DNA of 64,000 nucleotides from Jiella marina (GTDB lineage Bacteria; Pseudomonadota; Alphaproteobacteria; Rhizobiales; Rhizobiaceae). The DNA is taken from contig NZ_JAKQZG010000010.1 of the NCBI RefSeq assembly GCF_024359545.1, positions 124,001 to 188,000 on the forward strand. The letters run 5' to 3'. Within the stretch, counting starts at the first letter, position 1; each line of letters starts with the position of its first letter. The notes below the pieces were generated by a model that saw nothing but the letters and a program-made list of their open reading frames with translations, had not been told where the DNA came from and searched no databases. The translations under genes were made by a program, and so were the position numbers. Of the stretch, positions 1 to 30,303 are shown one piece after another.

Positions 1-2
1 AA

Positions 3-272
3 GGGTCGGAGCGGGCCGCCATTGTCGAGGTGCCGCTCAGCAGGGCCGATATGGCCGCCTATCTGGGAACGACGCTGGAAACGGTGAGCCGATCGATTCA
101 CCGCATCGCGGATCACGGTGCGATCGAGATCATCGACCCCCGCCAGTTCCTGATCAAGGACTGGCCGGCCCTCCTGCGCCTGTCGGGCCGGTCGGATCTG
201 ACGAGCCATCAGTTCCTCGGCCGCTTCTCTGGACATGACGACAACATGCGCACGCTGTCGGAAGCCTGCTGA
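3..272 (+). CDS. Crp/Fnr-family regulator, C-terminal fragment
   Basis: The frame is open from the left edge, so the N-terminal sensor domain lies outside the window. About 89 codons remain, encoding the winged helix-turn-helix of a Crp/Fnr protein: an SRADMAAYLG stretch followed by the recognition helix ETVSRSIHRI. The E..SR pattern in that helix is what FNR and FixK proteins use to read TTGAT half-sites. Ten such palindromes follow in the next 28 kb, which makes this protein the natural candidate for their regulator. Whether it carries an N-terminal iron-sulfur cluster (FNR/FnrN type) or lacks one (FixK type) cannot be seen. Confidence 0.9.
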   Translation, partial: GSERAAIVEVPLSRADMAAYLGTTLETVSRSIHRIADHGAIEIIDPRQFLIKDWPALLRLSGRSDLTSHQFLGRFSGHDDNMRTLSEAC

Positions 273-414
273 CGGTTGGTTTCGCGTTCTGGCCCTTCGG
301 GCTTTGCATCCCGTTCAGGCATGGGCCGAAGCCCATCCCGCAGGTTCTTTGCGTGTCACATTCGTGTCTGCACTGCCGTGGGACATTCCCATGGCGAAGG
401 TCGTCGGCCCGGAT

Positions 415-428
415 TTGATCGGCATCAA
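415..428 (+). promoter_or_regulatory. FNR/FixK-type box upstream of the HlyD-RbbA export operon
   Basis: TTGATCGGCATCAA is a perfect TTGAT-N4-ATCAA palindrome, centred about 160 bp before the HlyD start. It lies in the 308-bp gap between the regulator fragment and the export operon. I see no convincing -10 at the usual distance and no other gene in this gap. Confidence 0.75.
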
Positions 429-580
429 GGACGGCGGGCTGAAAATGGTGCTGTGTCGCGATGCGTCGCCGCCTTCGTTCGAAAGCGCGTCGCTCGTTTC
501 CGAAGCCACACCGCCTGGTGGCTTCGTTCTTTCGAAGCGAATGCGGATCATCGACCGCCTTCAACGGGAACGCCTCTGAG

Positions 581-1651
581 ATGCCGAAGCGAAGGACCCT
601 TCTTATCCTCGCCGTCTTCGCGGTCGCCGCGGGTGCGGGCTATTTCGGCTATCAGCAATATCAGCCGAGCGGGCTGCCGGACGGTTTCGCCACGAGCAAC
701 GGCCGGATCGAGGCTGTCGAGATCGACGTGGCCGCCAAAACGGCGGGGCGTATCGCCGAGATCGTCGTCGGCGAGGGCGACTATATCGAGGCCGGCCAGA
801 AGCTCGCGACCATGGACATCGCCACCTTGCGGGCGCAGTTGCGCGAGGCCGAAGCCAATCTCGAACGGGCGAAGATCGGCGTCGAGACCGCCGAGGCGGA
901 AGTGCGCCAGCAGGAGGCCCAGCGCGACGCGGCCGAGGCGCTGGTGGCCCAGCGACAGGCGGAACTCGGCTCGCTGGAAAAGGATCTTTCCCGCACGAGG
1001 GAGCTCGTCCAGCGTGGCACCACCTCCCAGCAGCAACTCGACCAGAGCACCGCGGCCGTCGAGGGCGGCAAGGCGGCGCTCGGAGCAGCCCGGGCTCAGG
1101 TCGCCGCGGCGGAGGCCGCCATCACCCATGCGCGCTCGAGCGTCGTCGCTGCCCGTTCGCAGATCGCGGCCGCCGAGGCCACGAAGGAACGCATCCAGGC
1201 CGATATCGACGACTCCACCCTGCGTTCGCCGCGCGCCGGTCGAGTGCAATATCGTGTCGCCCAGCCGGGAGAAGTGGTTGGCGCCGGAGGTGCCGTCCTC
1301 AATCTCGTCGACCTGACCGACGTCTTCATGACCTTCTTCCTGCCGACGGACGCGGCGGGCCGCGTCGCGGTCGGCAGCGAGGTGCGGCTGGTGCTCGATG
1401 CGGCCCCGCAATACGTGATCCCCGCCCGCGTCACCTATGTCGCCGATGTTGCGCAGTTCACGCCGAAGACCGTCGAGACCGAGGAGGAGCGGCAGAAGCT
1501 CTCCTTTCGGGTGAAGGCGGGCGTCGATCCGGCCGTGTTGAAGCAATATGTCCGCTACGTGAAGACCGGCCTGCCGGGCGTCGCCTATGTCCGGCTCGAC
1601 GACCGGGCGGCATGGCCGGACGACCTTGCCGTCCGTCTGCCCGATGAGTGA
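581..1651 (+). CDS. HlyD-family periplasmic adaptor (membrane fusion protein)
   Basis: This 356-residue protein has an N-terminal membrane anchor (about residues 5-24), a first lipoyl half-motif around 40-85, and a long Ala/Glu/Gln-rich coiled-coil hairpin to about 215. The second lipoyl half ([19 protein letters not shown]) and a beta-barrel region follow. It should bridge the inner-membrane ABC exporter encoded next to an outer-membrane channel. The ATG at 581 was chosen because the anchor starts directly there. The stop overlaps the next start by 8 bp, so the genes are translationally coupled. The order matches E. coli yhiI-rbbA-yhhJ. Substrate unknown. Confidence 0.9.
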
Positions 1652-4496
1652 CGAAGAGCCGGCGGAGCCGGGCACGGTCGCGCAGATGTCGGGCGTTTCG
1701 CTGGGTTACGGCAAGACGATCGCCCTCGACGACGTCACCCTGGCGTTTCCAGCGGGTCGCCTGATCGGCCTCGTCGGTCCGGACGGCGTCGGCAAGTCCA
1801 GCCTGCTGGCGCTTCTGGCCGGCGCGCGGGCTCTGCAGAAGGGGTCGATCGAGGTGCTTGGCGGCGACATTGCCAGCGCGCGCCATCGTCGGGCTGTCTG
1901 CCCCCGGATCGCCTACATGCCGCAAGGGCTTGGCAAGAACCTCTACCCCTCGCTCTCGGTCGAGGAGAACATCGCCTTCTTCAGCCGCCTGTTCGGCCAG
2001 GGCCCGCAGGAGCGGCGCCGGCGGATCGACCATCTGACCCGGAGCACGGGCCTTTTTCCCTTCAAGGACCGGTCGGCGGGCAAGCTCTCCGGTGGCATGA
2101 AGCAGAAGCTCGGGCTTTGCTGCGCGCTGATCCACGATCCGGACCTTCTGATCCTGGACGAGCCGACCACCGGCGTCGATCCTCTGTCGCGGCGCCAGTT
2201 CTGGGCGCTGATCGACGTGATCCGCCGCGAGCGCCCCGGCATGAGCGTCCTTGTGGCAACGGCCTATATGGAGGAGGCGGCGCGCTTCGACTGGCTGGTC
2301 GCGATGGATGCGGGAAAAGTGCTCGCCACCGGCAGCGCGACCGAGCTTCAGGCGAAGACAGGAACGACATCGCTCGAAGCCGCCTTCGTCGCTTTTCTGC
2401 CGGAGGCGAAACGCGAGGGTTACAGCCCCGTCGTGACCACCCCCTTCGAGCCGCGAGACGGCGGCCCGCCGGCGATCGAGGCCGACGGCCTCACAATGCG
2501 CTTCGGCGATTTCACCGCCGTCGACCATGTGAGCCTCAAGATCGAGCGCGGCGAGATCTTCGGCTTCCTGGGTTCGAACGGCTGCGGCAAGACCACGACC
2601 ATGAAGATGCTGACCGGCCTTCTGCCGGCGAGCGAGGGCGAGGCCCGCCTCTTCGGCCGCCGTGTGGATCCGAAGGATCTGATGATCCGCCGCCGCGTCG
2701 GCTACATGTCCCAGGGCTTCTCGCTCTATGGCGAATTGACGGTGCGCCAGAACCTGTCGCTCCACGCCAATCTCTTTCACATTCCCGAAGGTGAGCTCGA
2801 GGCGCGGGTCGACGAGATGATCGCGCGGTTCGATCTGGCGGACTCGGCCGACGCCTACCCGGAAGCGCTGCCGCTCGGCCGCCGCCAGCGCCTGTCGCTC
2901 GCCGTGGCGCTCATCCATCGGCCGGAGATGCTGATCCTCGACGAACCCACATCGGGCGTCGATCCCGTCGCGCGGGATGGCTTCTGGCGGATTCTGATCG
3001 ACCTTGCCCGCAAGGACGGGGTGACGATCTTTATTTCCACCCACTTCATGAACGAAGCCGAGCGCTGCGATCGCGTTTCGCTGATGCATGCCGGCCGCGT
3101 CCTGGTAACGGCGGACCAGCGGACATTGCCGGCCTCCCGCGGCGTCGCGACGCTGGAGGAAGCCTTCATCGGCTATCTGGAAGCGGCTTCGGGGGAAGCC
3201 GGCGGGGCACCCGAGTCGCTGCTGGACGACCAAGCCGATCGCTTGAGAGTAGCGGCTAAGAGCGACGCTTCGGCGGATCCGAGCGCTTTCGAGCGACTGA
3301 GCGGGCCGGAGGAGGCGCGTCCCTTGATCGAAGGCCACAGCTTTCCGGAAAAACGGCCGAAACCCCGCGCGTTCGATTTCCGTCGCATGCGCAGCTATGC
3401 CCGGCGCGAGGCCCTGGAGCTGCGGCGTGATCCGGTGCGGTTGACGATGGCGCTGATCGGCTGCGCGCTCCTGATGTTCGTGATGGGATACGGCATCAAT
3501 CTCGACGTCCAGAACCTGACATTCGCGGTTCTCGATCGCGATCAGACGACGGTCAGCCGCGACTATACCCTGAACATCGCCGGCTCGGACTATTTCGACG
3601 AAAAGCCGCCGCTCGAAAGCTATCGTGAACTCGATCGCCGCATGCGCGCCGGCGAGATCGGGCTCGCCCTCGAAATCCCGCCGGGCTTTGCGCGCGACAT
3701 CGCCCGCGGAAAGGACGTCGCCGTGGCCGCCTGGATCGACGGCGCGATGCCGAGCCGGGCGGAGACGATCAGCGGCTATGTCCAGGGCATGCATCTCAAC
3801 TGGCTGGCCCGCAAGGCCCGCGAGTCCGGTCAGCCCGATGCCCTGGCGGGGCCCGCCGAGATCGAGATCCGCTATCGCTACAATCCGGATGTGAAGAGCC
3901 TGGTCGCGATGGTGCCGGCCATCATCCCGATGCTTCTGATGATGATCCCGTCCATGCTCGCGGCGCTCAGCGTCGTGCGCGAGAAGGAACTCGGCTCGAT
4001 CGTCAATTTCTACGTCACGCCGACGACGCGGCTCGAATTCCTGATCGGCAAGCAATTGCCCTATGTCGCGATCGCGACGTTCAGTTTCGTGCTTCTTGCG
4101 GTGCTCGCCGTCTTCTTCTTCGCTGTGCCGCTCAAGGGCAGTTTCACGACCCTGCTCGTCGCGGCGATCGTCTACGGGGCCGCCGCGACGGCGATGGGGC
4201 TTCTGATCTCGAGTTTCATGAAGAGCCAGATCGCCGCGATCTTCGGTACCGCGATCCTGACGCTTCTGCCGGCGCAAAGCTTTTCCGGCATGATCGACCC
4301 CGTCTCGTCCCTGGAAGGCTTCGGCCGCGTCGTCGGCGAGATGTACCCGACCACCTATTTCCTCACCATCACGCGCGGCGTGTTTTCCAAGGCGCTCGGA
4401 TTTGGCGATCTTGCCGGACAGTTTCTCCCTCTGATCCTCGCCGTGCCCGTTCTCCTCGGCCTGTCCGCGGCGTTCCTCAAGAAGCAGGAGCGGTGA
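1644..4496 (+). CDS. rbbA: RbbA-like ABC transporter, two ATPase domains fused to a permease
   Basis: A 950-residue fusion. The first ATPase domain has Walker [10 protein letters not shown] near residue 45 and signature [10 protein letters not shown]. The second has GSNGCGKTT near residue 310 and the degenerate signature [10 protein letters not shown]. After a linker, an ABC-2 type permease begins with a membrane segment near residues 600-622, followed by a periplasmic domain and about five more segments from residue 750 on. This is the layout of E. coli RbbA/YhiH, which has been linked to ribosome binding; export with the adjacent HlyD and permease proteins is an equally good reading. The start lies inside the HlyD end. 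Confidence 0.92.
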
Positions 4497-4499: not shown

Positions 4500-5627
4500 A
4501 TGTCGGCAAGCCTCGCCAACATCTTTCATCTCGGCATCAAGGAACTGCGCAGCCTCTGGCGCGATCCGGTTCTGCTGATCTTCGTCCTCTATGCTTTCAG
4601 CCTGGCGATCTATTCGACTGCGACGTCCATTCCGGGAACTCTCAACCGGGCGCCGATCTCGATCGTCGATCACGACCGCTCGCAACTCTCGACACGGATC
4701 CGGGCGGCGTTCTATCCACCGTTTTTCATCGAGCCCGTGCTGATCGACGAAAGCGAGATGGACCGACGGCTCGACGAGGGCCACGATACCTTCGCCCTGG
4801 TCATTCCGCCCGATTTCCAGAAGGACGTCCTCGCCGGGCACCGTCCGAGCGTGCAGTTGAATGTCGACGCGACCCGAATCTCCCAGGCCTTCGCCGGCTC
4901 GGGCTATGTCCAGTCGATCGTCTCGGGCGAGGTGGCGGCGTTTGCGCGGCGCTATCGTGCGGCCGAGGCTCTTCCCGTCGATCTGGCGCTGCGGGCGCGT
5001 TTCAATCCCGCCCTTGATCAATCCTGGTTCGGTGCGGTGGTGGAGGTCATTAACAATGTCACCATGTTCGCGATCATCCTGACCGGGGCCGCGCTGATCC
5101 GCGAGCGCGAGCATGGCACGATCGAGCACCTCCTGGTCATGCCGCTGACACCCTTCGAGATCATGGCCAGCAAGATCTGGTCGATGGGCCTCGTCGTGCT
5201 CGTGGCCTGCGCCTTCTCGATCCTGTTGGTGGTGAGGGAACTGCTCTCGGTTTCGATCGGAGGCTCGATCCCCCTGTTTATCTTCGGCACGATGCTCCAT
5301 CTTTTCGCGGCATCGTCGATGGGGATATTCCTGGCGACCCTCGCCCGCACGATGCCGCAACTCGGTCTGCTCATCATTCTCGTCCTCCTGCCGCTGCAGA
5401 TGCTGTCCGGCGGCATGACGCCCATGGAAAGCATGCCGGAGGCGGTGCGGATCCTGATGTTCGCGGCCCCGACGACACACTTCGTCTCGCTCGGCCAGGC
5501 GATCCTGTTTCGCGGCGCCGGCATCGGCGAGGTCTGGCCGCAACTCGTCGCGATCACGATCATCGGCGCCGTCCTGTTCGCGGCCGCGCTGATGCGCTTC
5601 CGCGCTTCGATCGGCGCGATGGCTTGA
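4500..5627 (+). CDS. ABC-2 family permease (YhhJ-like)
   Basis: A 375-residue inner-membrane protein with an N-terminal membrane segment, a periplasmic domain of about 130 residues, and five C-terminal membrane segments (conserved stretch REREHGTIEHLLVMPL between them). This is the ABC2_membrane_3 layout. It starts 3 bp after the RbbA-like gene and is the last gene of the HlyD-RbbA-permease operon. It probably pairs with the permease half of RbbA to form the pore. Substrate is not evident. Confidence 0.9.
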   Translation: MSASLANIFHLGIKELRSLWRDPVLLIFVLYAFSLAIYSTATSIPGTLNRAPISIVDHDRSQLSTRIRAAFYPPFFIEPVLIDESEMDRRLDEGHDTFALVIPPDFQKDVLAGHRPSVQLNVDATRISQAFAGSGYVQSIVSGEVAAFARRYRAAEALPVDLALRARFNPALDQSWFGAVVEVINNVTMFAIILTGAALIREREHGTIEHLLVMPLTPFEIMASKIWSMGLVVLVACAFSILLVVRELLSVSIGGSIPLFIFGTMLHLFAASSMGIFLATLARTMPQLGLLIILVLLPLQMLSGGMTPMESMPEAVRILMFAAPTTHFVSLGQAILFRGAGIGEVWPQLVAITIIGAVLFAAALMRFRASIGAMA

Positions 5628-5686: not shown

Positions 5687-5700
5687 TTGACCCGCATCAA
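5687..5700 (+). promoter_or_regulatory. FNR/FixK-type box upstream of the cation P-type ATPase
   Basis: TTGACCCGCATCAA fits TTG(A/C)-N6-(T/G)CAA and is centred about 132 bp before the ATPase start. It is the only notable element in the 198-bp gap after the export operon. Confidence 0.7.
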
Positions 5701-5825
5701 GGCGGCAAGAGCCTCCCGATGCTGATGTCCGATGCCTGTTGGATGGAGGCGGCGACGGGGTGGCGCTCTCGCATATTCTGGCGCAGGCGTGCCCCGCGCC
5801 CCAGCGAATTGACGAGGACCTCAAC

Positions 5826-8564
5826 ATGATCCAGCCGCCCGGCACCCCCACCGGCAAGGCGACCGGATCGTCTCGGGACACCGCCTGGCATGGGCTCGTG
5901 GTCGACGCCGTGATGACCCGGCTCGAAAGCTCCCCCGACGGCCTTTCCAATTCTGAAGCCGAGCGTCGGCTGGCGCTCTTCGGGCCGAACGCGCTGCCCC
6001 AGCCGCCCGCCCGGTCGATCGCCGCGATCATCCTGTCGCAACTGAAGAGCCCGCTGATCTATCTGCTGCTGGCGGCGGCGGCGGTCTCCTTCCTGCTCGG
6101 CGAATATGACGATGCCGGCTTCATCTTCCTCGTGCTGACGATCAACACGGCGGTCGGGGCAACGCAGGAATGGCGGGCCGAGGCGAACACGGCAGCGCTC
6201 CGCTCGGCGATCACCACCGTGGCGCGGGTTCTCCGAAACGGCACCGTGCGGCGCCTGGACTCGCACCAGCTTGTGCCGGGCGACGTCGTGCTCCTCGAAG
6301 GCGGCGACCGGATCCCGGCCGACCTGCGCCTTTTGGAGGCGAACGAGGTCCAAGCCGACGAATCCTCGCTCACCGGCGAGTCTTTGCCCGTAGACAAGGC
6401 CGCCGGCGAAGCCCTGCCGGAGGACACGCCGCTTGCCGAGCGGCTGACCATGCTGCACGCCGGCTCCACATTGCAGCGCGGCCGCGCCCGGGCCCTGGTC
6501 GTGGCGACCGGAAGCCATACGGAACTCGGCGCCATCGCCGGCGCGCTCAAGAGCCCGGCCGCCGCACCGCCACTGACGCGGCGGCTCGACCGGTTCGCGC
6601 GCATGCTCGGCCTGGTCTCGCTCGTTCTCGTCGGCGCCGTCATGGCGCTCCAGCTCAGCCTCGGCGAGTCGCTTTCGGAGACCTTTTTCGTGGCGATTGC
6701 GCTGGCCGTCGCGATCATCCCGGAAGGGCTTCCCGTCGCGGTGACGATCGCGCTCTCGATCGCCACCCGGCGTATGGCGCTGCGCAACGTCATCGTGCGG
6801 CATCTGCCAGCGGTGGAGGGGCTTGGCGCCTGCACGGTGGTGGCCACCGACAAGACCGGGACGCTGACGATGAACCAGCTCACCGCCAAGCGGCTCTGGC
6901 TGCCGGACCATGGTTTCGTCGAGGTCGAGGGGGCGGGCTTCGAGACCAGCGCAAGGCTGCATCAGGAGGGGCAGGGCTTGAGCGATACCGCGCATGGGGC
7001 GGTGCGCTCCCTCGCGCGCTCGGCCGCGCTCTGCAACGACGCCGATTTCGATCCCGATGGGGGCAAGGAAGGTCGCAGCGGCGACGCGGTCGATCTCGCC
7101 TTCCTGGTGCTCGCGCTCAAGACCGGCCTGGATACGGGCGTTCTGCGCAAGACCGCGCGCCGGATTGCCGATCTGCCATTCTCGGCGGAACGCAAATATG
7201 CCGCCAGCCTGCACGATCACGGCGACGGCCATATCCTCCACATCAAGGGATCGGCGGAAGTCATCGTGCCGCTTTGCGACCACGTCGACGGCGAAAACGT
7301 GCTGCAACTGGCCGACGAGATGGCGAGCCGCGGCTACCGGGTCCTCGCGGTGGCGGCGAAACCCGTGGGAGCGGCCGACGATCCGGCGGGCCGCCGGGCG
7401 TTGGACGGAGATCTTCAGGGGCTGATACTGCTCGGCCTCGTCGGCTTCATCGATCCGCTGCGACCCGAGGCGAAACAGGCCGTCGCCGAGTGCCGCCGCG
7501 CGGGCGTGGCGGTGAAGATGATCACCGGCGACCACGCTGCGACCGCCTTCGCCATCGCCCGCGAACTTGGCATCGCCGAAAGGCCGGAGGAGGTCGTCAC
7601 CGGTCGCGAGGTCGCCGCCGACGACAGCGGAAGCAGCGCACGGGTCGCAGGTGCAAGTGTCTTTGCCCGGGTCGAACCGGCCCACAAGGTGCGGATCGTC
7701 GAGGCGCTGAAACGCGCGGGCCATGTGGTCGCCATGACCGGCGACGGGGTCAATGACGCGCCCGCTCTGCATCGCGCCGATCTCGGCGTGGCCATGGGCC
7801 GGGACGGCACGGATGCGGCCCGCGACGCGGCCGACCTCGTTCTCGCCGACGACAATTTCGCCTCGATCGTCGCCGGCATCGAGGAAGGCCGGGCGGCCTA
7901 CGCGAACATCCGCAAGGTCATCTATCTCCTGGTCGCGACGGGGGCGGCGGAAGCCCTGATCTTCCTTCTGGCGCTGGCCACCGGCCTGCCGCTCCCGCTG
8001 ACAGCGGTCCAGCTCCTCTGGCTGAACCTGGTGACCAACGGCGTGCAGGACGTGGCCCTCGCGGCGGAGGGGTCGGAGAAGGGACTCCTCGACCGGCGGC
8101 CCCGGCCGCCGCGGGAACCGGTCTTCGACAGGCTGATGATCCGCGAGACGTTGCTCGCCGGTGCCGTGATGGGGCTCGTCTCGACGGCGGCCTTCGCCTG
8201 GATGATCGCGCAGGGCATGAGCGAGTCCGATGCGCGCAACACGCTGCTGTTCCTGATGGTCGCCTTCATGAACGTGCATGTCTTCAATTGCCGGTCCGAG
8301 ACGCGCTCCACCTTCCGGATCCCGCTCTCGAACAACTGGCCGCTGATGGCGGCGATCGTCGGCGCGCAGGCCGTTCATATCGGTGCCGCCTTTACGCCGG
8401 GTCTGAGCGATGTCCTCGAACTGGAGCCGCTGCCCTGGAGCGAATGGCTGATGCTGATTCCGCTGGCGCTCACCGTCCTCCTCGTCATGGAAGCCGACAA
8501 ATGGCTCCGATCGCGACGGTCGAGCCGTCCCGAAAGGCGCTCCCGTGAGCTTCGGAGCGCCTGA
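5826..8564 (+). CDS. Cation-transporting P-type ATPase, Ca-type (CtpF/PMR1-like)
   Basis: A 912-residue P2-type ATPase. It has an N-terminal cation ATPase domain, the dephosphorylation loop LTGES (near residue 182), TM4 motif PEGLPVA, phosphorylation site DKTGT (D near 342), hinge TGDGVNDAP, and TM6 motif WLNLVTNGVQD. PEGLP and the N..T..G..D pattern of TM6 resemble SERCA/PMR1 calcium pumps, but a different divalent ion is possible. The ATG at 5826 gives the usual family N-terminus. The gene stands alone behind an FNR/FixK-type box. The family member CtpF belongs to the hypoxia regulon of Mycobacterium tuberculosis. Confidence 0.92.
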   Translation: MIQPPGTPTGKATGSSRDTAWHGLVVDAVMTRLESSPDGLSNSEAERRLALFGPNALPQPPARSIAAIILSQLKSPLIYLLLAAAAVSFLLGEYDDAGFIFLVLTINTAVGATQEWRAEANTAALRSAITTVARVLRNGTVRRLDSHQLVPGDVVLLEGGDRIPADLRLLEANEVQADESSLTGESLPVDKAAGEALPEDTPLAERLTMLHAGSTLQRGRARALVVATGSHTELGAIAGALKSPAAAPPLTRRLDRFARMLGLVSLVLVGAVMALQLSLGESLSETFFVAIALAVAIIPEGLPVAVTIALSIATRRMALRNVIVRHLPAVEGLGACTVVATDKTGTLTMNQLTAKRLWLPDHGFVEVEGAGFETSARLHQEGQGLSDTAHGAVRSLARSAALCNDADFDPDGGKEGRSGDAVDLAFLVLALKTGLDTGVLRKTARRIADLPFSAERKYAASLHDHGDGHILHIKGSAEVIVPLCDHVDGENVLQLADEMASRGYRVLAVAAKPVGAADDPAGRRALDGDLQGLILLGLVGFIDPLRPEAKQAVAECRRAGVAVKMITGDHAATAFAIARELGIAERPEEVVTGREVAADDSGSSARVAGASVFARVEPAHKVRIVEALKRAGHVVAMTGDGVNDAPALHRADLGVAMGRDGTDAARDAADLVLADDNFASIVAGIEEGRAAYANIRKVIYLLVATGAAEALIFLLALATGLPLPLTAVQLLWLNLVTNGVQDVALAAEGSEKGLLDRRPRPPREPVFDRLMIRETLLAGAVMGLVSTAAFAWMIAQGMSESDARNTLLFLMVAFMNVHVFNCRSETRSTFRIPLSNNWPLMAAIVGAQAVHIGAAFTPGLSDVLELEPLPWSEWLMLIPLALTVLLVMEADKWLRSRRSSRPERRSRELRSA

Positions 8565-10004: not shown

Positions 10005-10045
10005 AGTCTAGCGGCGGCCGCGGTCGGGTGATTGACGAAAATCAA
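10005..10045 (-). promoter_or_regulatory. FNR/FixK-type promoter of the YARHG gene
   Basis: The box TTGACGAAAATCAA is at 10032-10045. On the minus strand a TAGACT -10 hexamer (10005-10010) lies 31 bp from the box centre, predicting a start near 9997 with the box at about -41.5. This is the class II activator spacing. The leader would be about 26 nt. Confidence 0.68.
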
Positions 10046-15198: not shown

Positions 15199-17211
<2,013 letters not shown>

Positions 17212-17215
<4 letters not shown>

Positions 17216-18777: not shown

Positions 18778-18784
18778 GCGTTCG

Positions 18785-21988: not shown

Positions 21989-22002
21989 TTGATCTCGCGC
22001 AA
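21989..22002 (+). promoter_or_regulatory. FNR/FixK-type box upstream of the host-attachment-family gene
   Basis: TTGATCTCGCGCAA fits TTG(A/C)-N6-(T/G)CAA and nearly matches the reverse of the box at 23840. It is centred about 77 bp before the gene start. The -10 is weak (TGTCTT near 22025). Confidence 0.6.
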
Positions 22003-22072: not shown

Positions 22073-22477
22073 ATGATCCTGCCCACTGGTGCCGTCGTTG
22101 CCGTTGCGGATGGCACGACCCTGAAGCTCTATCACAACAGGGCGGCCGAGCCCCATATCGAACTCGTCCCCCATGACGATCCGGAGATTGCCGCGAAGAA
22201 CCCGGGATCGGGCACGCGCCATCGCGACAGCTCGGCCAATCCGGATGTCCACCGGGGTGAGGAAGACAAGTTCGCTGCGGGAACCGCCGACTATCTGAAC
22301 CGGATGGTGACCGACGGAAAGATCGACCAGCTGTTCCTGATCGCGGATCCCCGGACGCTGGGCGAACTGCGCCGGCATTTCCACCCGAAGCTTCGCGAAA
22401 AGCTCGTCGGCGAATTGCACAAGGACCTTGTCGCCCATCCGGTCGAGGATATCGTGAAGGCGATCCACCACGCCTGA
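22073..22477 (+). CDS. Host attachment protein family (PF10116-like)
   Basis: A 134-residue cytoplasmic protein with the order typical of the family: VVAVADGTTLKLYHN near the start, a central charged linker, then LFLIADPRTLGELRRHF and a C-terminal LVAHPVEDIVKAI. The family is named after a plant-attachment mutant, but its fold suggests an RNase-H-like or eRF1-like module and its biochemistry is unknown. The ATG at 22073 starts the conserved region. A FNR/FixK-type box precedes it. Confidence 0.85.
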   Translation: MILPTGAVVAVADGTTLKLYHNRAAEPHIELVPHDDPEIAAKNPGSGTRHRDSSANPDVHRGEEDKFAAGTADYLNRMVTDGKIDQLFLIADPRTLGELRRHFHPKLREKLVGELHKDLVAHPVEDIVKAIHHA

Positions 22478-22523: not shown

Positions 22524-22835
22524 ATGTTCCGCCTCGGCCTCGCGTTGACTGTCAGCCTCTTGGCGTTCGGCCCCGCTCAGGGGCAGCCCAAGGGCGTTCC
22601 TGCCGAAGGCAAGCGCATCGCCGAGCGCTGGTGCGCCACCTGCCATATCGTCTCGCCGGAACAGGAGAGCGGGAACGCCGACGTCATGACCTTCATGGCC
22701 ATCGCCAGGAAGAATGCCGACGATCTCGGATCGCTGGCGACCTTCCTGGTCGATCCCCATCCGGTGATGGCCGATACCAGCCTGACCCAGCGCGAGATCG
22801 CCGATCTCGTCGCCTATATCGGCAGCCTGCAGTGA
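22524..22835 (+). CDS. Small periplasmic c-type cytochrome
   Basis: A 103-residue protein with a signal peptide (cleavage likely after GPAQG or nearby) and one heme-binding motif CATCH around residue 40. Methionines at HPVMAD and VMTFMAI are candidate axial ligands. It should carry electrons in the periplasm, perhaps to a terminal oxidase. It lies 46 bp after the host-attachment gene, probably in the same transcript, and converges on the universal stress protein. Confidence 0.88.
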   Translation: MFRLGLALTVSLLAFGPAQGQPKGVPAEGKRIAERWCATCHIVSPEQESGNADVMTFMAIARKNADDLGSLATFLVDPHPVMADTSLTQREIADLVAYIGSLQ

Positions 22836-22929: not shown

Positions 22930-23763
22930 TCAGCGCGCGATGAACAGGGGCAGGGGCGGTTTTTCGATCATCGAGCGGGTGACGCCGCCGAAGAACCGTT
23001 CGCGCAGTCGGGAATGGCCATAGGCCCCCATGACGATCATCTCCGCCGAAACGTCATAGGCATGGTCGCGGATCACGTCAGCCACCGGCTTGCCCGAGCT
23101 TGGCAGACGATCGACCGTCACCTTGGCGCCGTGACGCGCCAGATAGGCGGCGACATCGGCGCCGGGCTCCGGGCCGGCCCCGGCCGTGGTCGTCTGCGGA
23201 TCCACCAGCACGACGCGCACCTCGTCCGCCCCGCCAAGGATTTCCGCCGCCTCGTAGACGGCGCGAGAGGCCTCCGGCGTGGACGACCAGGCGACGACGA
23301 TCCGGCGCGGCCGAAGCGTGGCTTGCGCTCCCTCTGGCAGGAGCAGGACAGGGCGGCGGCTGTCGAAGAGCGCGCCTTCGAGGACGACTTCGGCGATATA
23401 GCGGTCCGAAGCGAGTTCCGGACCGACGAGGACGAGATCGGCGTAGCGAGCCCTGCGTCCCACGGCCTGCGCGATCATCGCGTGCTCGTGATGGGCGGTG
23501 TCGACGTCGGCCGAAACATCGGCCTTGGCGAGGCGCGCTTCGACGCGTTCCATGCGCTCGCGCAACTGCCGCACCTGCTCGCGCTGCTCTTCGAGCCAGT
23601 AGTCGGAACCGACGGCAGCTTCGCCGAGCGGCGGCGGCTGGGTGATCGCGGCGAGGAGGACGGAAAGATGCGCCTTTTCCGCCTCGCAAAGGGATTGGGC
23701 CAGGGTGAGATCGGCGTCGGATTGCTCGAGGCCGGTCACGCTGAGGATGGTCTTGAAGCGCAT
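22930..23763 (-). CDS. Tandem universal stress protein
   Basis: A 277-residue protein made of two UspA-like domains. The C-terminal one ends with the ATP-binding pattern MGAYGHSRLRERFFGGVT. The N-terminal one (VGPELASDRYIAEVVLEG) looks degenerate. Tandem Usps often bind ATP and modulate stress or dormancy responses. It diverges from the second phasin and has its own FNR/FixK-type promoter. Confidence 0.9.
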   Translation of the reverse strand: MRFKTILSVTGLEQSDADLTLAQSLCEAEKAHLSVLLAAITQPPPLGEAAVGSDYWLEEQREQVRQLRERMERVEARLAKADVSADVDTAHHEHAMIAQAVGRRARYADLVLVGPELASDRYIAEVVLEGALFDSRRPVLLLPEGAQATLRPRRIVVAWSSTPEASRAVYEAAEILGGADEVRVVLVDPQTTTAGAGPEPGADVAAYLARHGAKVTVDRLPSSGKPVADVIRDHAYDVSAEMIVMGAYGHSRLRERFFGGVTRSMIEKPPLPLFIAR

Positions 23764-23813: not shown

Positions 23814-23853
23814 GTTAGACCCGGCGCTCTGCCGAAGTGTTGCGCTAGATCAA
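23814..23853 (-). promoter_or_regulatory. FNR/FixK-type promoter of the universal stress gene
   Basis: The box TTGCGCTAGATCAA is at 23840-23853. On the minus strand a TCTAAC -10 (23814-23819) lies 30 bp from the box centre, giving a start near 23805 and a leader of about 42 nt. This is class II spacing. Confidence 0.68.
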
Positions 23854-23920: not shown

Positions 23921-23934
23921 TTGATTTTCGTCAA
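23921..23934 (+). promoter_or_regulatory. FNR/FixK-type box upstream of the second phasin
   Basis: TTGATTTTCGTCAA fits the FixK/FNR consensus and is centred 115 bp before the phasin start. It is the second of two boxes in this divergent region, 81 bp from the usp box. A possible -10, GATACA, lies near 23965, slightly farther than ideal. Confidence 0.68.
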
Positions 23935-24042: not shown

Positions 24043-24432
24043 ATGGCCGAGGAAAATACCTCGTTTTTCGGTGCGAACGGTCTTGAGAGCGTCACCGCGG
24101 ACAGTCGGCATCGGCTCGCTGGGCTGATCCACATGAATGCCGGTTTCATCGAAGCGGCCGCCCGTTGCGGCACGGAGTGGGCCGACTTCACCCGCAGGCG
24201 ACTGGAACGCGACATGGAGATGTCGCGGAAGCTGGCCGCCTGCCGGGACGTGCCGGAAGCCATCGACGTCTTTCAGAAATTCTATCAGACGGCTTTTTCC
24301 GACTATTCTTCCGAGTTCGGGACATTCTGGAAGAACAGTGCGGACATCGCTTCCGACGCGATGAGCCGGGTGGTTCGCGAAACGGGTGCCATGGCGAACC
24401 GAGAGGGTCCCAAGACGGGTAAATCCTCCTGA
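24043..24432 (+). CDS. Phasin family protein
   Basis: A 129-residue, helix-rich cytoplasmic protein with the phasin pattern: ECGTEW-like helix (CGTEWADFTRRRLERDMEM), a short break at CRDVPEAIDVFQKFYQTAF, and a final amphipathic helix. Phasins coat polyhydroxyalkanoate granules, and some act as general chaperones. The ATG at 24043 follows GGGAGAG. It is controlled from a divergent region shared with the universal stress gene. Confidence 0.82.
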   Translation: MAEENTSFFGANGLESVTADSRHRLAGLIHMNAGFIEAAARCGTEWADFTRRRLERDMEMSRKLAACRDVPEAIDVFQKFYQTAFSDYSSEFGTFWKNSADIASDAMSRVVRETGAMANREGPKTGKSS

Positions 24433-24619: not shown

Positions 24620-26947
24620 ATGCCGCAAAAAACCGATGAACGAGCCGCACCGGTCTGGCGAGAGGTCGCGGAGCGGGCGTTTCTTCCTGTCCTCTGCATT
24701 CTGGTGGCGATCGGGGGGTTCGGCTGGCTGACCGAGCGGCCCGATCTTGCCGCCGGCGCATGGGCGGTGGCGACAGCTGCCGCCCTGATCGTTCTTGCAG
24801 CCGACATGGTGCGCAGCCTCCGGCGCGGAGATTTCGGCCTCGACGTCATTGCCGCGCTCGCGATGATCGGTGCGCTCTGGCTGGGCGAGTATTTCGCCGG
24901 GGCCGTCATCGCACTGATGTTTTCCGGTGGTCAGGCACTGGAGGCCTATGCCGAGCGGCGGGCGAAGGGCGAACTGACGGCGCTGCTGGCCCGTATGCCC
25001 CGCAAGGCGATGCGCCATGGCGAAACGGGCCTCGAAGAGATCCCGGTCGACGATGTCGAGGCCGGCGATCTGATCCTTGTGCGACAGGGCGAAGTCGTTC
25101 CCGTCGACGGCACGGTATCGGGCGGCGCCGCGACGCTGGACGAATCGGCCCTGACCGGGGAATCGGTTCCCGTCCGCCATTCGGCGGGCGATGAAATCAT
25201 GAGCGGCACGCTCAACGCCGGCGATCCTTTCGATCTCAGGGCATCGAACAAGGCTGCGGCCAGTACCTATGCCGGCATTGTTCGCCTGGTCGAGGAGGCG
25301 CAGGCGGGAAAGGCGCCGAGCACGCGGCTCGCTGCCCGTTTCGCTCTCGCTTTTCTGGCGGTCACGCTCGTCATGGCCGGCGCGGCCTGGTTCCTGTCCG
25401 GCGATCCCACCCGTGCGCTGGCCGTTCTCGTGGTCGCGACGCCATGCCCCCTCATCCTCGCCGTGCCGGTCGCGATCATTGCCGGCGTCTCCCGTACGGC
25501 CCGACAGGGCGTCCTCGTCAAAGGTGGCGGCGTTCTGGAGGCGCTGGCGGGCGTGAAGACGGTGATCTTCGACAAGACAGGCACGGTCACCGACGGCCGG
25601 GCGCGGCTCGTGGATCAGATCGCCCGCCCGGATCTCGACCCCGCGGAGGTCCTGCACCTCGCCGCCTCCCTCGACCAGACCTCGCCCCATGTCCTCGCAA
25701 AGGCCCTGGCGGAGGCGGCGCGCGATCGCGGGCTGACGCTCGCGACTCCTGCCGAAGTTCGGGAAACGCCGGGCGACGGGATCGAAGGAGTGGTGGACGG
25801 GCGTTCCATAATCGTTGGCGGCTGGCGGTATGTGGCCGGCACGCTCACGGGCGAGGACGAGTTCGGACAAGAACTCGCCGGCTGGTCCCGCCGACCGGGT
25901 ACGGTATCGGTCGTGGTCGCACTCGACGGAAAGCTCGCCGGCGCCTTCCTGTTTGCCGACGAGGTGCGGCCGGAGGCGGGAACCGTGCTGAGGCATCTGC
26001 GGGGCGGGGGTGTCGAGCGGATCGTGCTCGCGACCGGCGACCGGGCCGACGTGGCCGACGAGATCGCCGCGTTTCTCGGTGTCGATCGCGTCGTCGCCGG
26101 CATGACGCCGCAGGGAAAGATCGAGCTCGTCGAGGAAGAACGCGCGAACGGCCCGGTCATGATGGTCGGCGACGGGGTGAACGACGCGCCGGCGCTCGCG
26201 GCCGCCGAAGTGGGCGTCGCCATGGGCGCGCGGGGGGCGGCGGCTTCCGCCGAAGCCGCCGACGTGGTGCTTCTTGCCGACCGCCTGGACCGGCTGGCGG
26301 GCGCGATCATCGTCGCCAGGCGTTCGCGACGGATCGCGCTTCAGAGCGTCATGGTGGGGCTCGGCCTCTCCTTCGCCGCGATGGTCGCAGCCGCCTTCGG
26401 CTATCTGACGCCGGTCGAGGGCGCACTGCTTCAGGAAGTGATCGACGTGTTCGCGATCCTCAACGCCTTGCGGGCGCTGGGTGTGCCCATCGGCGAGCTT
26501 CTTTCGGGACAGGGGCTCGCGCCGGCGGATGTCGCCAAGCTCGAGGGCGAGCACCGCGAACTCGAGGAAGTGCTCGATGCGATCGGCACGCTTGCCGCGC
26601 GCGTTCGGTATCTGGAGGCGCCGGAACTGCGCCGCGAACTCGACGCCCTCGATCGTTTGTTGAACGAGCGCCTGCTTCCCCATGAAATGGCCGACGACCG
26701 CGAGATCTATCGCCGACTGCGTTCCGGCCCAGGCATGATCGACGCACTGGCCGGCATGAGCCGCGGCCATATGGAGATCCGCCGCATGATCCAGACCTTG
26801 CGGGGACTGGGCACGGGGCTGGAAGCCCGCGAGCCAACCGAGGCGGAGCGCTATGCGATCGAGCGTCACCTGCACGGGCTCCTGGCGATCACGCGGCTGC
26901 ACTTCGCGCAGGAAGACGAGATCTATCGCGCCCTCGAGGCGGCCTGA
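24620..26947 (+). CDS. P1B-type metal ATPase with C-terminal hemerythrin domain (P1B-5/Nia-like)
   Basis: A 775-residue metal-exporting ATPase with no N-terminal HMA domain. About eight membrane segments are visible. The metal site is TPCP (residues 274-277) in the segment before the phosphorylation site DKTGT (D near 318), with QEVIDVFAILNALR in the last membrane segment; this combination marks the P1B-5 group. Residues about 645-775 form a hemerythrin-like four-helix bundle with His/Glu ligands (HRELEEV, LPHEMADD, GHMEIRRM, HFAQEDEIY). The rhizobial relative Nia responds to nickel and iron. The start at 24620 avoids overlap with the iron-box region. Confidence 0.9.
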   Translation: MPQKTDERAAPVWREVAERAFLPVLCILVAIGGFGWLTERPDLAAGAWAVATAAALIVLAADMVRSLRRGDFGLDVIAALAMIGALWLGEYFAGAVIALMFSGGQALEAYAERRAKGELTALLARMPRKAMRHGETGLEEIPVDDVEAGDLILVRQGEVVPVDGTVSGGAATLDESALTGESVPVRHSAGDEIMSGTLNAGDPFDLRASNKAAASTYAGIVRLVEEAQAGKAPSTRLAARFALAFLAVTLVMAGAAWFLSGDPTRALAVLVVATPCPLILAVPVAIIAGVSRTARQGVLVKGGGVLEALAGVKTVIFDKTGTVTDGRARLVDQIARPDLDPAEVLHLAASLDQTSPHVLAKALAEAARDRGLTLATPAEVRETPGDGIEGVVDGRSIIVGGWRYVAGTLTGEDEFGQELAGWSRRPGTVSVVVALDGKLAGAFLFADEVRPEAGTVLRHLRGGGVERIVLATGDRADVADEIAAFLGVDRVVAGMTPQGKIELVEEERANGPVMMVGDGVNDAPALAAAEVGVAMGARGAAASAEAADVVLLADRLDRLAGAIIVARRSRRIALQSVMVGLGLSFAAMVAAAFGYLTPVEGALLQEVIDVFAILNALRALGVPIGELLSGQGLAPADVAKLEGEHRELEEVLDAIGTLAARVRYLEAPELRRELDALDRLLNERLLPHEMADDREIYRRLRSGPGMIDALAGMSRGHMEIRRMIQTLRGLGTGLEAREPTEAERYAIERHLHGLLAITRLHFAQEDEIYRALEAA

Positions 26948-26961: not shown

Positions 26962-28005
26962 TCAACGGCGTGTGTGCGACAGCGCGGCCACGTCGGACGC
27001 CTCGATCCACCCATCCGGCGAAAGCGCCTTCGTGATCAGCCCGTATTTGGTCTGCGTGACTTTGAGCTCGCGGTACCAGTGGACGAGATCGCCCCAGGGA
27101 TTGTTGATCTGGGCGAGGCCCGAGATGAACGCGACGATCGTTCCGACCTCGATCGCCCCGATGACGGCATAGTAGCCGCCCACGGCCAGGATCGCGGCGA
27201 CCCCGACATGGTGCATCAGGTTCATCAGGAAGTTCATCGAGTATTTGAGCTTGAAGATCCCCATGTTGATCTGAAAAACCGTCGCGATTTCCGCCCCGAG
27301 CGCTTTCGTCGCGCCTGATAGCGGTTCGGCGATGATGTCGGAACTGAGTGCACGCAGCGTCGCAATCCGTTTCCCGACCCGGCGGTTGATCGCGCTTTGC
27401 ATCAACGGCACGAAGACGAACTGTGGGGACAGGACAAGCAGGGCCACCAGCGCCATGAGCGGTTCGAGATAGGCCAGATAGGCGAAGGTCGAGACGAGGA
27501 TGCCGCCCTTCAGGATCGGCTCCGAAAGACTGACGCCGACAAAATTGCCGATCGGTTCGACCTCGCTGAGGACCAGCGAGACCTCCACGCCCGGGGCGAT
27601 ATGCCGGTTCTTGGGCAAGGCGAGATGCCCGACACGGTCGAGGATGGCGCTCCGCAGCCAGCGGACCGCGTTCTCGCTGACCCGTCCGCGATAGACGTTC
27701 ATGCCGAGCTTCAGAAGACCCAGCGCGATGGCTGTTCCCGCGTAGATCGCGGCGAGGCGGAAGATGGCCTCGAGGTTTCCGCCCTGCGTTGCCTGATTGA
27801 CGATCCGTCGCTGCAATTCGAGCGGTGCCAGATTCACCAGAAAGACGCCGGCCGAAAGGATGACGAGCCAGACCTGCTCGGAGACGCCGCAGCGCCAGAT
27901 CGTGCCGGACAGGGTCGGTGGAAGCGGTCGTTTGCCGCAATCGTCCGGCCGGCTATCAGGCGAACCGCCCTGCGGGATGTCCGTGTCGAGCTTCGTTATC
28001 GTCAT
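26962..28005 (-). CDS. Orphan ABC exporter transmembrane domain protein
   Basis: A 347-residue protein with the six-helix ABC exporter membrane fold (ABC_membrane type): helices around SEQVWLVILSAGVFLVNLAP, IFRLAAIYAGTAIALGLLKL and further on. The sequence ends shortly after the last helix and carries no Walker A, signature or Walker B, and no ATPase gene adjoins it. Either it borrows an ATPase encoded elsewhere or it has another role. It converges on the P1B ATPase 14 bp away and diverges from the HWE kinase. Confidence 0.75.
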   Translation of the reverse strand: MTITKLDTDIPQGGSPDSRPDDCGKRPLPPTLSGTIWRCGVSEQVWLVILSAGVFLVNLAPLELQRRIVNQATQGGNLEAIFRLAAIYAGTAIALGLLKLGMNVYRGRVSENAVRWLRSAILDRVGHLALPKNRHIAPGVEVSLVLSEVEPIGNFVGVSLSEPILKGGILVSTFAYLAYLEPLMALVALLVLSPQFVFVPLMQSAINRRVGKRIATLRALSSDIIAEPLSGATKALGAEIATVFQINMGIFKLKYSMNFLMNLMHHVGVAAILAVGGYYAVIGAIEVGTIVAFISGLAQINNPWGDLVHWYRELKVTQTKYGLITKALSPDGWIEASDVAALSHTRR

Positions 28006-28185
28006 GGCTGAGCCTTCGAGCCCGCTGCTGAGCGCCGTTGGCCTCACGTGCCGCGTTTGACCGCCGGCGCCATGCGGTCCGTGGGTCCTTCCGATCGAAG
28101 AGCTGCTCGGGCATGGCGGACGGAGCCGGGCGATCCGCCTCCTTCGTCGAGCCCGTCACCAAAGCCCGGAGATCGCCGACTTGCC

Positions 28186-28226
28186 TTGACGAATATCAAA
28201 GCGAACGGGCGACGGCAGCGCAGAAT
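28186..28226 (+). promoter_or_regulatory. FNR/FixK-type class II promoter of the HWE kinase
   Basis: The box TTGACGAATATCAA (28186-28199) is followed by a CAGAAT -10 (28221-28226) at class II distance. The transcription start would be near 28234, which decides the start of the gene that follows. The box may also serve the divergent ABC protein, whose start is 187 bp away. Confidence 0.68.
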
Positions 28227-28321
28227 TCGCGATGAATCAAAAGCTTTCCGCCTGCAGCGATCGGGCCAAGGTCAAAGCGTGGCGGAACTTGTACGACAGA
28301 CAAGAAAAGGGCGGCAAGCCA

Positions 28322-29755
28322 ATGGCGGAGTGGGAGACGGGCGTCCCGATCGATCGAGAGAAGAAGGTATGCCGGCAAGCGGCCATGGCGCCCGATCTTC
28401 TGGATATCATCGGCGACGGCGTCGTCAGCACGGACCAATCTGGCCGCATCCTGATCTTCAATCGCGCCGCCGAAGAGATCTTCGGCTTTGCCGCAGAGGA
28501 GGTGCTGGGTCGGCCTGTCGAGGTCTTGATGCCGGATCGCTTTCACGCAGGGCATATCCGGCATGTCCGCACGCTGGCATCGTCCGCCTCCTTCGCAACC
28601 CGCCTGATGGGCCATCGCCGCAGCGTCATGGGACGCCGTCGCAATGGCGAGGAGTTTCCCCTGGAGGCGACGCTTTCCCGATCTGTCCTCGATGGCGCGC
28701 CGATCCTGACGGTCGTCATTCGCGACGTCACCGAACGTCGCCGCCAGGAAGCCGAGCTTGCCGCCAGTCGTCAGGTCCTTGCCGATGCCGAACGGCGGCT
28801 GCGGCTGGCCCTCGAAGCCGGCTCGATGGGGGTCTGGGAATGGCACAGGGCCACCGACAGGCTCGACGCCGATCCGCTTGCGCGCCGCCTGTGGGGGCTG
28901 CCGGAGACGGGTCCGCTTCGCCGCGCCGACCTGGACCATGGTAGCGCCGCCGGACTGGGCACGGCTGTCGATCGCGTGGCAGAGGAGGGCGGCGAAACCG
29001 AACTGGAATTGCAGACCACCCAGGCAGACGGCTCGCGTCGCTGGGTTCTGATCAAGGGCGCGGTGTTCACGCCGGATACCGCCGACGCAGCGACGATCGT
29101 CGGCGTCACCTTCGACGTGACCGAACGCGCAACCGCGGAGGAGCAGCGCCGGCTGATCATCGGCGAACTGGACCACCGCATGAAGAATCTGCTTGCGATG
29201 ATCAATGCGATCATCGCGATGAGCGGCAGCCAGGGCATGTCGTTGCCGGATTACAAGCGCGCCCTGCTGGCTCGGATGGGTGCCCTCTCGCAGACCCACA
29301 ATCTGCTGGTCGCGGGCCACTGGACCGGGACGACGCTTCAGGATCTCATCGCAGGCGAGATGGGGGCCTACGGTTATCCGGAGGGTGATCGGGTCGTCGT
29401 TTCGGGGCCGGATGTCCCGCTTGGCCCGGGCTTGGGGCTCGCCATGGGCCTGGCGCTGCATGAGCTTGCGACGAACGCCGCCAAATATGGCGCCTTGAGC
29501 GCGAGCGGCGGGCGCGTGACGATGGACTGGTCGCTGCGGGCCGGGCGGGGAGAAACCCGGCTGGCCTTCGAATGGCGCGAGAGTGGCGGGCCACCCGTCG
29601 AGCCGCCCACCCGGCGCGGCTTCGGCAGCGTCCTGATCGAGCGGATGATGCGGCTGCGCGGCGCCGAAGTCGCCATCGACTACGCACCGGAAGGGCTCTG
29701 CTGCCGGATCGATCTACCCGTGGGAGACGTCGGCGTCAGATCGGGCGAGACTTGA
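28322..29755 (+). CDS. PAS-domain HWE-family sensor histidine kinase
   Basis: A 477-residue soluble kinase. A first PAS domain (DIIGDGVVSTDQSGRILIFN) and a second PAS/PAC region ending TFDVTERA precede the HWE kinase core: phospho-acceptor LDHRMKNLLAMI, N-box HELATNAAKYG and the W-x-E motif EWRESGG. No response regulator adjoins it. An in-frame ATG at 28232 exists, but the predicted transcription start falls at about 28234, so the ATG at 28322 is preferred; this is an inference. The PAS type resembles FixL-like oxygen or redox sensors, but heme binding is not evident. Confidence 0.85.
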   Translation: MAEWETGVPIDREKKVCRQAAMAPDLLDIIGDGVVSTDQSGRILIFNRAAEEIFGFAAEEVLGRPVEVLMPDRFHAGHIRHVRTLASSASFATRLMGHRRSVMGRRRNGEEFPLEATLSRSVLDGAPILTVVIRDVTERRRQEAELAASRQVLADAERRLRLALEAGSMGVWEWHRATDRLDADPLARRLWGLPETGPLRRADLDHGSAAGLGTAVDRVAEEGGETELELQTTQADGSRRWVLIKGAVFTPDTADAATIVGVTFDVTERATAEEQRRLIIGELDHRMKNLLAMINAIIAMSGSQGMSLPDYKRALLARMGALSQTHNLLVAGHWTGTTLQDLIAGEMGAYGYPEGDRVVVSGPDVPLGPGLGLAMGLALHELATNAAKYGALSASGGRVTMDWSLRAGRGETRLAFEWRESGGPPVEPPTRRGFGSVLIERMMRLRGAEVAIDYAPEGLCCRIDLPVGDVGVRSGET

Positions 29756-29868
29756 TGGCCGCGCTGGGCGCCTCGTCCTCGATAGCGCTGCTCCGGTTTG
29801 CCCGTGAGAGGGCGAGGGCTGACGGCCACCTACCATTCGTTGCGTGAGCCAGCGGATGGCGCCTGTCC

Positions 29869-30303
29869 TCAGAAGTGCTCGCCGATCCGGAAGGGGCCGT
29901 GCCGGGTCGAGGCGGCGACGAGATAGGCGGTGGACCATCCGATCAGGATGAAACCGCCGATGCCTTCCAGAGCCCCGAGGAGTCGCCATTCGGGCGAAAG
30001 CACAAGGTCGCCATAGCCGAGCGTCGAGAAGGTCGTGGTCGAGAAATACAGGGCCTCTTCCAGGTTTCCATGCGCCCCGATCGCGACATAGACGATCGCC
30101 CAGAGCCAGACTTCCAGCGTGTGGGCCCCGAAAAGGCCCAGCACCGTCACCAGCATGGCGATCGTCTGGCCGAAGCCGTGCCTCTGCAGGCGCAACCACC
30201 GGATCAGGTTTCGCATGACCCTTGTGAGAAGGATCAGGCTGATCGTGTGGATCAGCACGGTGAGCGAGATCACGATGGTGCCGAGGCCGAGATTGAGGGC
30301 CAT
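29869..30303 (-). CDS. Two-helix potassium channel family protein
   Basis: A 144-residue membrane protein with an N-terminal segment, a further helix near VLGLFGAHTLEVWLWAIVY, the pore with selectivity filter STLGYGD, and a last helix. This is the Ion_trans_2 layout with no cytoplasmic regulatory domain. GYGD is the potassium filter. It stands alone; its 167-bp upstream gap holds no recognisable operator. Confidence 0.87.
   Translation of the reverse strand: MALNLGLGTIVISLTVLIHTISLILLTRVMRNLIRWLRLQRHGFGQTIAMLVTVLGLFGAHTLEVWLWAIVYVAIGAHGNLEEALYFSTTTFSTLGYGDLVLSPEWRLLGALEGIGGFILIGWSTAYLVAASTRHGPFRIGEHF

Follow-up and report, generated by a model that had tools for sequence, protein, structure and literature searches.

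An Fnr/FixK-type low-oxygen regulon probably gathered in one chromosomal island of Jiella marina

Introduction

The predicted FixK regulon of Alphaproteobacteria includes Hsp20, HlyD, an ABC permease and subunit, cytochrome c and a zinc alcohol dehydrogenase (ADH) (PMC2908626). Microoxia induces a universal stress protein (Usp), AdhP, Hsp20 and a host attachment protein in Bradyrhizobium diazoefficiens, where these genes are marked as FixK2 targets (PMC6515984). In Rhizobium leguminosarum, Hsp20 is induced about 50-fold via FnrN. The stretch described here comprises 64,000 nucleotides of Jiella marina (assembly GCF_024359545.1, contig NZ_JAKQZG010000010.1, positions 124,001 to 188,000 of the forward strand) and is called the window. 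Its first 30 kb, together with a short part to the left, carry a cluster of Fnr/FixK-type boxes beside an Fnr-type regulator gene and before genes for stress response, proteostasis and energy conversion. We read this island as an Fnr/FixK-type low-oxygen regulon gathered at one chromosomal site, with a probability of roughly 0.82. The box and the regulator class are those of the FixK/FixK2 and FnrN/FnrL regulons, the targets overlap (Hsp20, HlyD-ABC, cytochrome c, zinc ADH, Usp, host attachment), and oxidase and fixG genes are boxed elsewhere in this genome. In contrast to those regulons, the targets here are packed in 30 kb, an N-type ATPase (N-ATPase) operon is included, and the annotated island genes contain no FixL/FixJ pair.

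Contiguous low-oxygen loci have also been described. The lxa locus of Burkholderia cenocepacia comprises 50 contiguous genes and has been compared with the DosR regulon in print (PMC6127331), and an lxa mutant yields fewer viable cells after anoxia (PMC3759415, citing Sass 2013). Compared by description only, lxa (BCAM0275-0323) resembles the island as a contiguous block with Usps, Hsp20, cytochrome c, metabolic genes and a suspected Crp/Fnr (FixK) control, whereas it holds six Usps (here one) and other metabolism, and its accessible descriptions name neither an N-ATPase nor RbbA. The DosR regulon of Mycobacterium tuberculosis includes Hsp20 (HspX), Usps and a Ca-type P-type ATPase (CtpF). It also shares with the island a protein of the aeRF1 superfamily, Rv2629, whereas its regulator, sensor and DNA site are its own; a search by Pfam for a DosR-type response regulator with a DosS/DosT kinase found no response regulator among the island genes. 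An earlier note on this DNA had proposed a kit like that of DosR but governed by another oxygen regulator, and had regarded it as undescribed as a unit. The gene contents and the box cluster are borne out by the results below; such a kit is already known in kind because of the FixK regulon and lxa, and the FixK/FnrN regulons and the lxa locus are precedents for the unit as well. The type of regulon, the contiguous low-oxygen locus and the comparison with DosR are thus all already known. The accessible part of PMC4999443 holds nothing on this kit.

Results

Clustering of strict anaeroboxes

Two patterns were used, a loose 14-bp palindrome, TTG(A/C)-N6-(T/G)CAA, and a strict core (anaerobox), TTGAY-N4-RTCAA. 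The window contains ten matches to the loose pattern and no more, every one of them at 415-28199 and none at 28200-64000, as the earlier note had reported; dinucleotide shuffles of the window give a mean of 2.32 and a maximum of 6 (n = 100). Across the genome, the loose pattern is noisy and weakly informative, with 177 sites where its reversed control gives 115. The strict core has 26 sites in 5.08 Mb against 2 for its reversed control, and nine of the 26 fall in C2:122062-152199, which corresponds to window -1938 to 28199. Eight of these nine belong to the ten palindromes reported earlier. When 26 sites were placed at random in 20,000 trials, the densest 30.1 kb never held more than five. The boxes are thus not equally frequent throughout the genome.

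By the gene calls, all island boxes are intergenic, as had been claimed, and none lies inside a called gene. The boxes at 21989 and 23840 (two of the ten) match only half of the consensus; both have counterparts in G397, a genome of the same genus, upstream of the same genes and at near-equal distances (about 79 bp for baeRF, 83 bp for usp). The box at 415 is identical in G397, where it stands 240 bp before hlyD, compared with 159 bp here. The ninth strict box (L032, G000:C2:122062-122075, window -1938) has a flavodoxin-fold oxidoreductase gene on one side and a second Host_attach/baeRF-type gene on the other. This position left of the window implies that the island begins outside it.

The features of the island are listed below in window coordinates; boxes are given without strand, and the databases supporting each gene stand in brackets.

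1..272, + strand: 3' part of P0001, a Crp/Fnr (FnrL/FnrN-type) regulator gene; gene start at window -510
415..428: strict anaerobox TTGATCGGCATCAA, about 160 bp before hlyD
581..1651, + strand: HlyD-family adaptor (Pfam)
1644..4496, + strand: RbbA-type ABC protein (NCBIfam RbbA, 1525 bits, cut-off 1050)
4500..5627, + strand: ABC-2 permease (Pfam)
5687..5700: strict box before the P2A ATPase gene, not conserved in relatives
5760..8564, + strand: P2A (Ca-type) P-type ATPase (Pfam, NCBIfam)
8583..9554, - strand: MBL-fold hydrolase (Pfam)
10032..10045: strict box, nearest called start codon at least about 480 bp away
10230..11213, - strand: zinc ADH, adh_fam_2 (Pfam, NCBIfam)
11368..11381: strict box between the divergent adh and hsp20 genes, about 160 bp from each
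11534..12073, + strand: Hsp20 (Pfam)
12178..14049, + strand: FtsH protease (Pfam)
14106..14504, + strand: protein of 132 residues, no Pfam match
14671..15027, - strand: AhpD-like (CMD) protein (Pfam, NCBIfam)
15138..15151: strict box in the gap separating the AhpD-like gene from atpD
15199..15212: strict box, about 103 bp before atpD
15309..21922, + strand: N-ATPase operon atpDC-Q-R-B-E-F-A-G (Pfam)
21989..22002: half-consensus box, 77 bp before baeRF, with a G397 counterpart
22073..22477, + strand: baeRF_family12/Host_attach protein (Pfam), predicted fold like the Balon middle domain
22524..22835, + strand: small cytochrome c (Pfam)
22930..23763, - strand: Usp (Pfam)
23840..23853: half-consensus box, 83 bp before usp, with a G397 counterpart
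23921..23934: strict box between the usp and phasin genes
24043..24432, + strand: phasin (Pfam)
24704..26947, + strand: P1B ATPase with a C-terminal hemerythrin-like domain, P1B-5-like (Pfam)
26962..28005, - strand: ABC-exporter transmembrane domain without an ATPase domain (Pfam)
28186..28199: strict box upstream of both neighbours, the ABC transmembrane gene (187 bp) and the HWE kinase gene (336 bp)
28529..29755, + strand: HWE histidine kinase (Pfam), membership of the kit not supported

Pfam recovers the genes named in the earlier note, namely Hsp20, FtsH, Usp, the P2A ATPase, zinc ADH, the AhpD/CMD protein, the complete N-ATPase operon and the HWE kinase; of its "phasins" just one is present. 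The P1B ATPase with its hemerythrin tail and the HlyD-RbbA-permease operon are additions to that list. In gene order, an ion channel gene (Pfam) follows the HWE kinase gene, and the genes from 30471 onward resemble pyrimidine degradation and unrelated metabolism. Directly after the island, 30471-34195 holds a pyrimidine-degradation-like pair, a DHO_dh protein with 4Fe-4S and a Fer4_20/Pyr_redox protein. The ABC transmembrane protein has a 45% relative near a P1B ATPase in G023, in a region with four strict boxes. Within 40 kb to the left of the window there is one tRNA, and the window itself has no Rfam match.

Placement before operon heads and islands in related genomes

The genes standing behind boxes were counted in regions of 15 genomes and one plasmid, with at most three matches per gene per region, paralogues and weak cross-matches included; a box was scored if it lay no more than 350 bp from the extrapolated start. 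Usp is boxed in 23 of 24 cases (19 strict), baeRF in 6/6 (5 strict) and Hsp20 in 5/5 (3 strict), and strict boxes precede ADH in six of nine and HlyD in five of eight. Genes in operon interiors carry none: RbbA 0/9, cytochrome c 0/6 and the permease 0/16, roughly half of the permease matches being cross-hits to the membrane part of RbbA. The boxes sit before operon heads, not before interior genes.

The P2A ATPase, RbbA and ADH proteins, together with the AtpR family, served as queries against 25 genomes; regions were picked by gene co-location and boxes were counted afterwards. The island itself holds 9 of 26 genomic strict boxes in 45 kb. The corresponding counts are 12/42 in 40 kb for G248, 11/35 in 40 kb for G209, 10/28 in 60 kb for G105, 7/30 in 40 kb for G265, 21/70 in 100 kb for G035, 5/15 in 60 kb for G090 and 4/46 in 40 kb for G050; G090 and G035 had shown boxes before their regions were extended. 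Enrichment over the own genome is 15- to 51-fold in seven of nine other genomes, and the remaining genomes of the 25 show no comparable grouping among the matches listed. The co-occurrence that the earlier note suggested testing takes the form of overlapping gene sets in genomes of the same order; gene order is shuffled and the block is not universal.

In the case of Sinorhizobium meliloti pSymA (L162), the block around the P1B ATPase (Nia) shares with the island a Crp/Fnr gene, Usps, a P2A ATPase, ADH, a P1B ATPase (61%), a flavodoxin-fold oxidoreductase and four strict boxes in 42 kb, whereas no N-ATPase, RbbA, Hsp20 or FtsH match lies in that 42 kb. Relatives' islands add FixJ-/FixL-like, arginine-deiminase-pathway-like and acyl-CoA-ligase-like proteins (read from the sequences by eye, the PAS kinase excepted). 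In a scan of genome contigs for named relatives, 80 of 116 loci were retained, mostly distant ones (best 47%, Roseomonas); the closest named match of the P1B ATPase is from Sinorhizobium, at 62%.

Within the genus, G397 carries HlyD-RbbA-permease-P2A ATPase-ADH-baeRF-cytochrome c-Usp at 69-86% identity and lacks the Hsp20-FtsH-AhpD-N-ATPase segment in the stretch examined, which ends soon after Usp. The island of J. marina thus resembles a G397-type core plus an N-ATPase/Hsp20/FtsH segment gained here or lost in G397. Because the same-genus regions (G400, G399, G397 and G349) were selected by their box positions, they offer no independent measure of box enrichment. Identical paired boxes, TTGACAGCTGTCAA, stand a few hundred bases apart at G397:C15:7810/8479 and G400:C27:20348/20891.

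Relatives' islands contain neither the HWE kinase, which the earlier note counted as part of the kit, nor the ion channel, and the single HWE match (42%) lies in an unboxed region of G230. Neither gene is supported as a kit member. The P1B ATPase was tried as an island marker and rejected: among 20 regions around its relatives, 13 have no strict box, four have one and three have at least four.

Candidate regulators and other explanations

The recognition helix reported at the left edge of the window belongs to P0001, whose gene starts 510 bp to the left; the helix reads ETVSR. P0001 contains the cysteines C5-x2-C8-x7-C16 and a central C104, a spacing which we take to be that of the FnrN/FnrL type. 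A cysteine cluster acting as oxygen sensor is described in PMC7888657. The best NCBIfam model of P0001 is FnrL (192.8 bits), with FixK second (99.3), and its closest relative of solved structure is FixK2. HTH_Crp_2 has 16 matches in the genome, 11 of them above the cut-off, and by the patterns used only P0001 and L288 among the 16 loci combine the cysteine cluster with ETVSR. L288 (G000:C34:20482) is a second FnrL-type regulator with the cluster CVSCEARHRGIC and the ETVSR helix, 36% identical to P0001.

Control of the boxes by L288, with the island Crp/Fnr as an accessory or diverged regulator, is possible, though we regard it as the less probable arrangement. L288 looks canonical in both cluster and helix, P0001 is divergent (192.8 of 300 bits for FnrL, with two residues differing in the helix context), and the island stretch of G397 yields no FNR match among its kit hits. 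On the other side, P0001 retains the full cysteine set and ETVSR and stands at the island edge, and further Crp/Fnr-type genes are present within or close to the islands of G050, G105, G248, G265, G035, G400 and pSymA. With start codons chosen by the analyst, these relatives' genes are mostly FixK-like without the cysteine cluster; G105 has one with C-x2-C-x7-C and one without.

Among the 17 strict boxes outside the island are some that precede expected targets. Four of these 17 lie within called genes, nine have a start within 350 bp and four have none. The neighbours, identified for eight of the nine, are fixG across from an EAL response regulator, a COX1-type oxidase subunit I across from hemerythrin-hemN, a cytochrome c across from a kinase-like protein, OmpW, one protein without a Pfam match, a radical SAM/B12 protein and two Usps, one with PhaC opposite at 323 bp. 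fixG, cbb3 genes, hemN, OmpW and Usp of the predicted FNR core match boxed genes here (PMC2908626). The box with PhaC opposite (L147, near G000:C23:62984) stands between Usp (190 bp) and the divergent polyhydroxybutyrate (PHB) synthase gene (323 bp), a possible hint at a link between PHB and oxygen.

A nitric-oxide-type Crp/Fnr regulator of the NnrR/Dnr class recognises related sequences, and the pSymA block adjoins nosZ, hmpA and ric; an island answering nitrosative stress instead of oxygen is nevertheless improbable, given that both ETVSR regulators have a cysteine cluster of the oxygen-sensing type and that boxed genes elsewhere in the genome (fixG, oxidase, hemN, OmpW) are targets of the oxygen type. 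DNR and NnrR are discussed in PMC2908626. Box clustering without regulatory meaning, through duplicated intergenic sequence or local base composition, is very improbable: two boxes do share a 31-bp repeat of 84% identity, but the stretch has no long repeats and no long direct repeats bounding the island, the control and shuffle counts given above are far lower, and in other genomes boxes recur before the same set of genes, with none before interior ones.

The N-type ATPase operon

The operon begins with atpD-C and contains AtpQ and AtpR, which identifies an N-ATPase; the alternate F1F0 beta subunit is the top NCBIfam model, yet below its cut-off (592.5 vs 752). Its order, atpDC-Q-R-B-E-F-A-G with AtpR, is that of the N-type ATPases of Burkholderia pseudomallei and Aphanothece, and subunit c has two carboxylates, as described for N-ATPases (PMC5376962; alignment by eye). 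Here the operon stands behind two strict anaeroboxes. A search of 397 genomes of the order found AtpR in 26, with 25 exceeding the cut-off, and all 26 operons were examined for a strict box in the 600 bp before atpD. Only the operon of J. marina (two boxes) and that of G212 (one) have it; the 24 others have none, G058 among them with a loose match and G296 with just 373 bp upstream. A third case, G400 of the same genus (atpD 81%), carries a strict box roughly 60 bp upstream of atpD, and its N-ATPase adjoins a P2A ATPase, Usp and HlyD-RbbA-permease; since it came to light in a search for boxes within the genus, its addition is biased.

Kit genes accompany each of the three boxed operons. Meanwhile, seven of the 24 unboxed operons have a kit-type match in the stretch examined, namely ADH (64%) and Usp (41%) in G245 and weaker matches of 27-39% in the remainder (Usp in G183, phasin in G060 and G097, Hsp20 in G108, a P-type ATPase in G188 and G064). 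Seven of the 24 unboxed stretches (L249-L272) hold one or two strict boxes, ten altogether, none before atpD. Nearness to boxed genes is thus not confined to the three; the box before atpD is. In L271 (G245:C4), an N-ATPase without its own box lies about 4 kb from a boxed ADH/Usp pair, possibly an intermediate between an unregulated and a recruited N-ATPase. The N-ATPase as a generally Fnr-controlled operon was rejected, with 0/24 other operons carrying a strict box before atpD. The Fnr-boxed N-ATPase operon is apparently new: a literature search that was not full-text and covered mostly papers outside subscription recognised no published link between N-ATPases and Fnr/FixK control. The cellular functions of N-ATPases are largely unexplored (PMC5376962).

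The baeRF12 protein and the P1B ATPase

The baeRF12/Host_attach protein has 134 residues and a single domain. Its predicted model best matches the middle domain of Balon (aeRF1 domain 2) upon re-ranking of Foldseek candidates, and a PDB sequence search gave no meaningful match. Compared with Balon and Rv2629, which are hibernation factors, it lacks both flanking domains; the three-domain layout of Balon, with its decoding-site and EF-Tu-binding parts, is absent. A boxed "host attachment" protein with a predicted fold like the Balon middle domain is apparently new.

The P1B ATPase carries a C-terminal hemerythrin-like domain. The hemerythrin motif of P1B-5 ATPases is H-HxxxE-HxE-HxxxxD (PMC9388753); here HxE and HxxxxD are present, and HxxxD replaces HxxxE.

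Discussion

The genes, the boxes, their density and their conservation before operon heads are observed, and on them we infer a regulon, with the binding protein, the oxygen dependence and every physiological role in it. Several observations weigh against this reading. P0001 falls under the NCBIfam cut-off for FnrL, and since there are two FnrL-type regulators in the genome, the principal one may be other than the island copy. Among the relatives, G212 has 3 of 41 boxes in 71 kb, just 4.9-fold enriched, and G187 has none of its 42 boxes in the 20 kb examined. In the same genus, 60 kb of G399_C4 contain four boxes yet lack a clear kit gene (one MBL match, 24%), and the G349 stretch has one box and no kit gene. 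Furthermore, the block is not universal, given the 13 of 20 P1B ATPase regions without a strict box, and in relatives any box precedes the P2A ATPase in only 2/18 and the P1B ATPase in only 3/15 cases.

In the regulon that we favour, a drop in oxygen would lead an FnrL/FnrN-type regulator (the island copy, the C34 paralogue L288 or both) to bind TTGAY-N4-RTCAA. The operon heads would then be switched on, comprising HlyD-RbbA-permease, the Ca-type ATPase, ADH, Hsp20-FtsH, the AhpD-like protein, the N-ATPase, baeRF-cytochrome c, Usp and phasin. The outcome would most likely be the survival of slow or non-growing cells: Hsp20 and FtsH may repair proteins, ADH may serve redox disposal, and the ATP-driven pumps (N-ATPase and Ca-type ATPase) may maintain ions and membrane potential. 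Simultaneously, phasin could act as a carbon store, and baeRF and RbbA could restrain translation.

A more specific proposal, which we consider unlikely although worth stating, is an oxygen-switched conservation of energy and ribosomes. Here Fnr would induce a minimal, single-domain protector of the Balon type (baeRF12), which with RbbA would idle ribosomes, and the N-ATPase would pump protons or sodium with ATP to keep the membrane charged once respiration halts. If true, N-ATPases would gain an oxygen-linked role not met in the literature searches made, and the parallel with DosR would gain a concrete shared part, a hibernation protein of the aeRF1 fold.

In this alphaproteobacterial order, putative low-oxygen survival genes are repeatedly packed in box-rich islands, like lxa in Burkholderia. 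The purpose of the N-ATPase becomes testable, because three genomes place one behind a switch of the oxygen type. Likewise, the role of the "host attachment"/baeRF12 protein becomes testable, because it is boxed in all six island cases and has the predicted fold of a hibernation-factor domain.

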